A stretch of DNA of 64,000 nt, taken from NCBI RefSeq assembly GCF_028622115.1, contig NZ_CP097263.1, positions 3,658,001 to 3,722,000 of the forward strand. Direction: 5' to 3'. Positions 43,154 through 44,895 of the stretch are shown piece after piece. Source of the stretch: Kutzneria chonburiensis (lineage in GTDB: Bacteria; Actinomycetota; Actinomycetes; Mycobacteriales; Pseudonocardiaceae). The notes beneath the pieces were generated by a model. The model searched no databases, was not told the DNA's origin, and saw only the letters and a program-made list of their open reading frames with translations. The position numbers and the translations under genes were made by a program. Each line of letters starts with the position of its first letter. The first letter of the stretch is position 1.

Positions 43154-43173
43154 GGGTTGCGGGAGTTAGGTTT

Positions 43174-43193
43174 GGGGGTTGGGTTGGGTTGGG
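43174..43193 (+). other. G-quadruplex-capable tract
   Basis: Five G, then TT-GGG three times (43174-43193), within a longer G/T stretch 43154-43216 after the PadR stop. Satisfies the four-run G-quadruplex rule with 2-base loops. It lies just outside the left hairpin repeat; the right outer flank has a run of nine C. Confidence 0.5.
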
Positions 43194-43237
43194 TTGGTGC
43201 GGTTTGGGTGGGGGGATTTATTCGGTGTGGTCGCGTG

Positions 43238-43344
43238 GATTTGGTGTGGAGCCTCTGCGCGATGGCCCAAGGGCTAAAAGCGGGCAGGACGAGCCTGCCC
43301 TTGGCCTGTCAATTGTACGCCATCGCGCCCCTCCACACAAAATC
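43238..43344 (+). repeat. Left 107-bp inverted repeat, itself a hairpin
   Basis: Identical to the reverse complement of 44733-44839. Internally self-complementary: GTGTGGAG/CTCCACAC, GCGCGATGG/CCATCGCGC, CCAA/TTGG and GGGCAGG/CCTGCCC around loop ACGAG. The immediate flanks GTCGCGTG (43230-43237) and CACGCGAC (43345-43352) pair too, giving a 123-nt hairpin. Confidence 0.9.
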
Positions 43345-43436
43345 CACGCGACTAGTCGGAGTTGCCGTGTTGCGGTGTGGCGGGAGGAAAGAAAAGCCTT
43401 TCTGCCTGGCGGGATTCACCCGTTAGAGATTCGCGT

Positions 43437-43452
43437 TCGATCTTGTGTTCGA
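43437..43452 (+). promoter_or_regulatory. SOS (LexA) box-like site before the HNH gene
   Basis: TCGATCTTGTGTTCGA matches the actinobacterial/Bacillus-type SOS box TCGAAC-N4-GTTCGA at 11 of 12 positions and lies 14 bp upstream of the ATG. Several 13E12-repeat genes of mycobacteria have such boxes. LexA binding not shown. Confidence 0.6.
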
Positions 43453-43466
43453 GTATTCTCAGAAGT

Positions 43467-44609
43467 ATGGAACTCACCCGCGAGATCGAGAACAGGGAAC
43501 CCACCGGGGCCATGTTCGATCTGGTGGTGGGTGCGGATCCCGCGAGCCTGACCCAAGAACAGTTGGTCAATTTTGTGGGGGTGGCCCGGAAGGTGCGGGC
43601 GGTGTGTGAATGGGCCGAACATGAGGCCCTCAACCACATCGACGACCTGACTGAGTTGGCGATGGCGACGAAGGTCTCGGAGCCGGCGCTGGCCCGGTCC
43701 CAGGAGATCGCCGCTGCCTTGGAGACTCATCCCGCGCTGGCGGAGCGGTTCCGTCGGGGTGAGATCGACCTGGCCCGGTTCGCGGCAGTGTGGGAGCGGA
43801 CCCGCCATCTGTCGGATCCTGCGCAGGTCGCCGAGGTCGACCGGGCCCTGGCTGAGGAGGCCGCTGGGATGACTCGGACTCAGGTGTGTCGCAAGGCCAC
43901 CGCGCTGGTCGCAAAGGCCGATCCGGATGGTTATGAGCAGCGCTGCCACAAGGCCAAAGACGACCGGCAGGTCGGGCTCTCGGCCTTGCCCGACGGCATG
44001 GCCAAACTGGTGTGGATCCTCCCCGCCACTGAAGCCCACCAGCTGTTCCAACAGATCTGCGCCGACGCCAAGTCCCTACCGAAGGACGAGCGCACCACCG
44101 ACCAGAAACGCTCCGATGTGCTCTGGGACCGTCTACGGGGCAAGCACACCAACTGGAACGTGCGGACCTTCGTGACCATCTCGATGGAGACCCTGCTGGG
44201 CCTGACCAATGACCCTGGCCAGCTTGCCGGTTATGGCCCGATCGCGGCCGAGGCGGCCCGCGAACTCGCGATGCACGGCCCCTTCCGGGGACTTCTCCTC
44301 GATGAGTACCAGCAGATCTCCGCGATCAGCACCGACACCTACCGGCCCACGGCGCTGATGAAAGAGACGTCCGTTGCTCGGGCCGGCGGGACCTGCACCG
44401 CCCCCGGCTGCACCCTCCCGATCCAGGAACACGACCACATCACCCCGTGGCCCACAGGCCGCACCCAAGCCACCAACCTGCAAGGGCTCTGCACCTGGCA
44501 CCACCACCGCAAACACGACAACTACACAGTGACTCAGGATTCAGATGGCACCACTCACTGGATCACCCCGGCCGGCCGCCATCACATCACCCGCCCCCTG
44601 CGGCACTAA
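43467..44609 (+). CDS. DUF222 / HNH endonuclease (13E12 repeat family)
   Basis: 380 residues from ATG 43467. The N-terminal helical DUF222 part (about 1-290) is followed by a zinc-type HNH module at 307-350: Cys pair in [12 protein letters not shown], His pair in EHDHITPW, Asn in TNLQGLC, and final His in WHHHRKH; all catalytic positions are kept, so the nuclease is probably active on DNA. The family is multicopy in many actinobacteria. This copy sits alone between inverted hairpin repeats with an SOS-like box upstream, so damage-induced expression and movement are plausible. Confidence 0.9.
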
Positions 44610-44732
44610 CCGGGGAACGGGCACCGGGAAAGGACTTCCCGCAGCCACCACAAAAAGGGTGCAGTGTGGGAGTCAAAACCCAGCCACCGCCATCCCATTC
44701 ACACACCGATCGCCAACTCCCCGAATTGGGTC

Positions 44733-44839
44733 GATTTTGTGTGGAGGGGCGCGATGGCGTACAATTGACAGGCCAAGGGCAGGCTCGTCCTGCCCGCTTT
44801 TAGCCCTTGGGCCATCGCGCAGAGGCTCCACACCAAATC
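44733..44839 (-). repeat. Right 107-bp inverted repeat, itself a hairpin
   Basis: Exact reverse complement of 43238-43344. Flanking bases TGGGTC (44727-44732) and GACCCA (44840-44845) extend the stem but differ from the left copy's flanks, while the next bases outward (CACACCGAA 44846-44854; CAACTCC 44714-44720) match the left copy again. Confidence 0.9.
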
Positions 44840-44895
44840 GACCCACACACCGAAGCCCCCCCCCGGAAACCGCCCAACGCAGGCACCCAACTCTC

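Follow-up and report, generated by a model that had tools for sequence, protein, structure and literature searches.

Free-standing HNH homing endonuclease genes consist of a nuclease gene alone, whose product cuts a cognate empty site, into which the gene is then copied. In IscB and HEARO systems an HNH enzyme gene lies beside a structured sequence, whose RNA is bound by the HNH protein. REPs are described as short palindromes with a GTAG or GTGG head, and RAYT units as invariably lying between two REPs in inverted orientation (PMC2817692). In M. tuberculosis, REP13E12 loci were placed among the most gene-converted, in a source that describes their members as without defined function (PMC13061034). 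Phage integration at REP13E12 repeats is mentioned in PMC2323391, and DIVE counts REP13E12 among repetitive elements (PMC10589994).

Here we describe a unit of about 1.6 kb from a window of 64,000 nucleotides (the whole stretch of Kutzneria chonburiensis DNA that was analysed), consisting of a hairpin, a DUF222/HNH gene, which is the only gene inside, and an inverted hairpin. The host is a soil bacterium, and its genome (G000) was a single contig of 10.41 Mb. The unit resembled REP/RAYT systems in that a single enzyme gene is bracketed by structured palindromes in inverted orientation, an arrangement found in 15 of the 16 G000 units. The dispersal of solo palindromes was a partial likeness, as they were present in some genomes (e.g. 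G035, from another genus, beside boxed ones) but none was found in G000. As in those systems, enzyme and palindrome varied together (Mantel r 0.83 in 49 units, a correlation for which linkage alone could suffice). It differed from them in its enzyme, which is DUF222/HNH where RAYT is a Y1 transposase, in the multicopy state of the units themselves in G000, and in its hairpins, which were about 125 nt long against 20-40 and had a consensus other than that of the GTAG/GTGG-headed short palindromes. The Y1 transposase (PF01797) had no match in G000-G004 and G006, the six Kutzneria genomes tested, nor in G035 and G166, and one match each in G147 and G189 (10 genomes tested). Because this transposase is absent, the unit is not a REP/RAYT or an IS200/IS605 element. 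The REP/RAYT likeness that had been proposed from the sequence, with an HNH enzyme in place of the Y1 transposase, held for the layout.

Multicopy DUF222/HNH genes are shared with the REP13E12 (13E12) repeats of Mycobacterium. However, at 30 DUF222 loci sampled across the class, which were other than the M. tuberculosis copies, neither a hairpin-model match nor an exact inverted pair of at least 25 bases boxing the gene was found. The unit was similar to HNH homing endonuclease genes in that the nuclease is the only gene and copying would proceed by recombination, though it was found at many unrelated sites in one genome and has long hairpin ends. For cutting and copying of the homing kind the signs were indirect, namely the grouping of copies by genome, the near-identity of the left hairpins and the C scar described below. 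Unlike IscB and HEARO, it possessed two inverted copies of the structured sequence and a DUF222 domain, and its IscB score was far below the cut-off. No description of a unit of such build was present among the matches listed from titles and abstract openings of the open-access literature. A search of a plasmid collection returned one record, in which the match was confined to the neighbouring IclR gene.

Structure of the unit and its protein

The left flank (43154..43229), between a PadR gene and the left hairpin, was G+T-rich, that is, C-depleted on the + strand. The left hairpin (43230..43352, + strand, 123 nt) had an outer stem of the GTCGCGTGG type and an asymmetric CCTCT/CC internal loop. 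It was followed on the same strand by the left spacer (43353..43466, 93.5% mean identity in 15 units), the gene (43467..44609, 380 aa) and the right spacer (44610..44724, 72% mean identity in 15 units). The right hairpin (44725..44847, - strand) was an inverted copy with the same core, and its outer stem, of the GGGTCG type, was different but compensated. The right flank (44848..44895) was A+C-rich (C-depleted on the - strand) and reached the convergent IclR gene.

The original prediction had placed perfect inverted copies of 107 bp within 43201..44871, and these were recovered. The arms (43235..43347 and 44730..44842, 113 nt) were inverted and 98% complementary, and their inner 107 nt (43238..43344 and 44733..44839) were identical in inverted orientation. 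The repeats were also strongly self-pairing, as predicted: folded separately, the two arms gave -46.8 and -42.1 kcal/mol (z -9.5 and -7.7), and none of 200 shuffled sequences folded as well as either.

The gene between the repeats was a DUF222/HNH gene, as had been read from its translation. The DUF222 domain was detected at E 1.9e-21 (77.1 bits, against a Pfam cut-off of 24.4) and the C-terminal HNH region matched a PHROG HNH family at E 3.6e-8 at best, which together place the product in the DUF222 / 13E12 protein family. The IscB model scored 11.8 bits (E 0.094) against a cut-off of 175, which does not indicate IscB/OMEGA homology, and a PADLOC search gave no match. With 23 relatives as input, AlphaFold gave a weak model (pLDDT 64), which had no match among solved folds at E 0.001, and a sequence search of solved structures returned nothing credible (best E 0.02). 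DUF222 genes were found in 49 of 60 genomes sampled across the class, often in many copies.

Copies within Kutzneria

Multiple copies had been predicted, and G000 was found to possess 15 units that have a hairpin on either side, besides a divergent one (77% at the amino acid level) that has the left hairpin only. Internal stops were absent from all 16 genes. The hairpin model gave 62 two-strand matches, representing 31 places (15 pairs and one); all 31 belonged to HNH units and none flanked another gene. No solo hairpin was found in G000 among the 150 of 6413 candidates that were scored with the model, and blastn agreed; the predicted solo hairpins were present in other genera (see below).

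The DNA of the unit was matched in five of the seven genomes of the genus, G000 included, and the hairpin model in six, the sixth being G006; G005 had no match. Four other Kutzneria genomes possessed subfamilies of their own and a fifth possessed remoter ones, with copy number ranging from 0 in G005 to at least 27 places in G004. All 17 hairpin matches in G006, read by eye, were upstream of a DUF222 match, within about 1.3 kb, and a downstream hairpin was not found in any of the eight units examined; one locus (L329) had two upstream hairpins. A hybrid was seen in G002 (L108), in which the gene and left hairpin were of one subfamily and the right hairpin resembled that of the other, as if the two subfamilies had recombined.

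There were 23 DUF222 matches in G000, and the control set beyond the 16 units consisted of five loci. None of the five had a hairpin-model match, so that such hairpins were absent from the other DUF222 genes examined here, a finding that the original prediction had named as unfavourable to it. The core itself recurred widely, and its confinement to the one locus, which had been named likewise, did not hold. A second DUF222 family of G000 (L063-L067) comprised five units, which shared 92-96% identity across some 1.4 kb and at which no hairpins were found.

Hairpins beyond the genus

In an alignment of 39 hairpins, two-sided changes that kept the pairing were present at 14 of 38 consensus pairs. 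The left and right outer stems differed in sequence, each being self-paired, and the apical parts varied between species. Rfam gave no match up to E 1.

Hairpin matches were present in at least 30 of 297 sampled genomes of the family (11 candidates were scored per genome) and in at least 9 of 46 genera, Kutzneria included. In G035, seven of the 12 hairpins listed adjoined a DUF222 match and five were solo, the core of solo and boxed hairpins being much alike. A hairpin was present at six of the 15 DUF222 loci fetched from this genome, at one of them on both sides. The tblastn matches at the G035 solos were the hairpin itself, translated in the frame of L280. In G147, from a third genus, inverted hairpins of about 148 nt boxed four of the five DUF222 loci examined, and four other hairpins examined had no DUF222 nearby. 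G166 had 95 two-strand hairpin matches, no DUF222 (E 1e-6) and no Y1 transposase match.

Empty sites and unit ends

The flank pairs of 12 G000 sites were searched across the genus. At five sites (L036, L037, L038, L040 and L044) at least one relative had the flanks 0-358 bp apart, in line with the empty sites that had been predicted, and further relatives had them up to 731 bp apart. The L044 site was closed in G002, with no gap. The interval was 0.85-1.6 kb in relatives at L034 and L041, and 2.0 kb at L043 in G003; L033 was occupied in two relatives, and no flank pair was found in the genus for L032, L039 and L042. No DUF222 or hairpin-model match was found at the 20 site loci fetched (L166-L185), among which were those with the wider intervals.

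The ends were judged on the six most similar pairs, two of which end at the hairpin bases. L100 and L102, both from G002, were 97.8% identical over 1565 bp, the identity starting and stopping at the outer hairpin bases between unrelated flanks, and in L109/L112 the ends were at most 10 bp from the hairpin bases. In three G000 pairs the common stretch was 19-31 bp longer on the left and 8-88 bp longer on the right, and the unit may therefore be slightly longer in this genome. In L113/L114 identity stopped short on the right. Mobility of the unit is well supported, and the comparison with relatives supports the view that it is gained or lost whole, with ends at or near the hairpin bases. An identical frameshift was present in L100 and L102, so a defective unit was itself copied, either in trans or through conversion.

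Inspection of L100/L102 and L044 by eye revealed no target duplication, and no target motif was found. A classical DDE insertion sequence was rejected as an identity for the unit, which contains no transposase gene and has no duplication at the L100/L102 ends.

Homogenisation and selection

For at least four of the 16 G000 sites, a relative also had a unit at the corresponding position (L031, which is the window locus, L033, L035 and L043). Fixation of the gene at the window locus in relatives, another finding that had been named as unfavourable, was seen in part: the site was occupied in G002 and G001 and had been in G003, which retained a pair of inverted hairpins, separated by 4.1 kb, together with a fragment from the N-terminal part of the gene; no hairpin was found in G004. 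In G003 and G004 (L148/L149) about 4.5 kb separated the genes that flank the window locus, most of it enclosed by the hairpins in G003.

When 51 genes were placed in a tree, all 16 from G000 formed one group (100/100), those from G004 (16) and G001 (3) formed one group each, and those from G002 (15) formed two. Left out of the tree were L100, L102 and L116 (frameshift or stop), the fragments L117 and L134, and 16 unit loci (L150-L165). The copies grouped by species even at shared sites, and are therefore homogenised within each genome. Identity among the G000 units was 99.4% for left hairpins, 91.6% for genes and 98.3% for right hairpins. Constraint on the fold alone cannot serve as the explanation for identity within genomes, as the apical parts differ between species.

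Between G000 and G002, the PadR gene at the window site had a dS of 0.55 and a dN of 0.046, and the unit gene a dS of 0.86 and a dN of 0.25; the IclR comparison was left out owing to a stop and a misaligned stretch. The 15 G000 gene copies had a mean dN of 0.026 and dS of 0.32 (dN/dS 0.08), indicating strong purifying selection.

Loss of cytosine around the units

Mean composition beside the units was 79% G+T in the left 50 bp and 77% A+C in the right 50 bp. Both fractions exceeded 0.6 in 38 of 40 units, 14 of 54 units having been left out since the pattern missed one or both hairpins. It is these flanks that gave the weaker similarity over 30-40 bp outside the repeats in the original prediction. 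By a like measure, such flanks were present in one of 102 other intergenic regions and in none of 32 convergent ones. The GC skew of the unit-facing strand faded with distance in G000, G002 and G004, and the change of its sign fell not at the hairpins but in the early part of the gene.

Loss of C was counted in 11 pairs, at 7 sites, in which the relative has the site empty. On the toward strand, C lost and gained numbered 350/84 at 0-250 bp, then 562/153, 706/240 (500-1000 bp), 528/315 and 499/341, and in the farther series 871/699, 1138/1018, 1613/1541 and 1368/1229 (7-10.5 kb). The ratio fell from 4.17 at 0-250 bp to 1.05 at 4.5-7 kb, and the decay spanned 1-2 kb on both sides of the unit. 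At 0-250 bp there were 204 C>G against 40 G>C changes and 116 C>T against 31 T>C, and the ratio was 5.2 where the toward strand was coding and 2.2 where it was template. No clear deaminase motif was found in the mutation context; C>T was highest after A, and C>G after C and T.

At two sites three empty relatives agreed with each other, and here G000 had lost 84 C and gained 15 within 500 bp. Farther out than 1 kb, losses and gains numbered 41/36, 95/62 and 128/84, a mild general loss of C. At the window locus, compared with G004, C lost and gained within 500 bp numbered 112/16 in G000, 87/20 in G002 and 58/22 in G001. Beyond 2 kb they numbered 53/57, 50/59 and 78/37, so that some excess persisted in G001. 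The depleted strands on the two sides are opposite and both run 3' toward the unit, and just these strands would be laid bare if the unit were broken internally and its ends then resected 5'-3'.

At 100-300 bp the inward skew was 0.25 for the four boxed units of G147 and 0.14 for the 15 DUF222 loci of G035; in G006 it was confined to the nearest stretch (0.16 at 0-100 bp, 8 DUF222 loci). A skew above 0.1 was present at 7 of 27 loci from other genera and G006. At solo hairpins the value at 100-300 bp was 0.07 in G147 (4), -0.03 in G035 (5) and -0.09 in G166 (5), the G166 solos examined having a mild opposite skew. The flanks of the hairpin-less L063-L067 also had GC skew of the opposite sign.

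Two simple causes of the skew were considered and set aside. It is not a property of every DUF222 gene, having exceeded 0.1 at none of 26 class-wide loci as against 12 of 16 G000 units, and the hairpin alone is disfavoured as a cause by the 14 solo loci without an inward scar.

Possible explanations

Since it is repeated, missing in sister species and free of a transposase, the unit seems to be a mobile element of undescribed build. We consider the chances evenly balanced that such a transposase-free element is spread and homogenised through nuclease-provoked breaks and recombinational copying. In this reading the HNH protein would be the cutting enzyme, breaking gene-bearing units or their targets. 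The broken ends would be resected, exposing 3' single strands, and damage to the cytosines of these strands would leave the C>G and C>T scar. Repair would then copy the unit from elsewhere in the genome, and spread would therefore be homing-like, by recombination, with a layout like that of RAYT/REP. The hairpins would most likely be the ends recognised by the protein or by the repair machinery, and the nuclease itself may recognise them, as was originally suggested, to which the strand-specific scar lends indirect support at most. That all this amounts to a previously undescribed class of mobile element in bacteria, a transposase-free, hairpin-ended HNH gene with break-driven recombinational spread and homogenisation and a C>G/C>T scar reaching 1-2 kb on both sides, is a tentative proposal, to which we give somewhat less than even credence. 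The opposite skew of L063-L067 counts against the break-and-resect reading, which leaves it unexplained. Further points against spread by breaks and copying are the hairpins without DUF222 in some genera, the lack of a downstream hairpin in the G006 units examined, the lack of a target duplication or motif, the ends that depart from the hairpin bases in most of the similar pairs, the copying of a frameshifted unit and the change of skew sign inside the gene. The scar might also have a separate origin, in target choice, R-loops or converging forks and not in breaks of the unit, which would be compatible with any account of the movement. This is possible but doubtful. The effect was stronger where the toward strand was coding, at least 7 of 15 G000 sites lay between convergent genes (by rough gene calls), and the sign was opposite in the hairpin-less DUF222 family and the G166 solos; yet template strands were affected as well, other convergent intergenic regions lacked such flanks, homologous empty sites had no scar, and at the two sites where the changes could be polarised it was the occupied genome that had changed.

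The HNH gene could be a passenger in a non-autonomous element, whose ends, the hairpins, are mobilised by a transposase or recombinase from another locus. The many solo hairpins of G166, which lacks DUF222, and those away from DUF222 in G147 would be expected of such an element, as would the copying of the frameshifted unit (L100/L102). We nevertheless hold this to be unlikely, as all 31 hairpins found in G000 sit in HNH units, selection on the 15 gene copies is strong, solo hairpins have no inward scar, and the one transposase family searched, Y1, is absent from G000-G004, G006, G035 and G166. It is improbable that the hairpin works at the RNA level, as a structured leader or guide that the HNH protein binds and that steers cleavage: the second copy is inverted and would be the complement on one transcript, and neither Rfam nor the IscB model gave support, even though a covarying fold immediately precedes the gene in Kutzneria units and in eight G006 units. 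That the genes are a fixed host family, whose hairpins are terminators and which ordinary recombination has duplicated, is hardly credible given the empty sites, the unit copies in unrelated flanks and the range in copy number within one genus, despite the sites shared among species and the strong purifying selection. If spread through nuclease-provoked breaks is the true explanation, a further type of transposase-independent mobile element would be known, the frequent conversion of REP13E12 loci would have a reason, and the genomic scar could serve as a marker of active units elsewhere. The role of DUF222 genes becomes testable in a unit that has well-marked ends, sites where it is missing and a scar of mutations.

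Other palindromic structures

A different palindromic family, GCGAGTCCCGC ... CACACCGAA, was seen by eye in intergenic position at four of the empty sites (L169, L172, L174 and L175). In G035, a different and shorter hairpin (about 93 nt) was found upstream of DUF222 genes at seven loci (L275-L277, L283, L284, L286 and L287). In G147, one locus (L333, 1032-3445) possessed two tandem DUF222 genes within one hairpin box.
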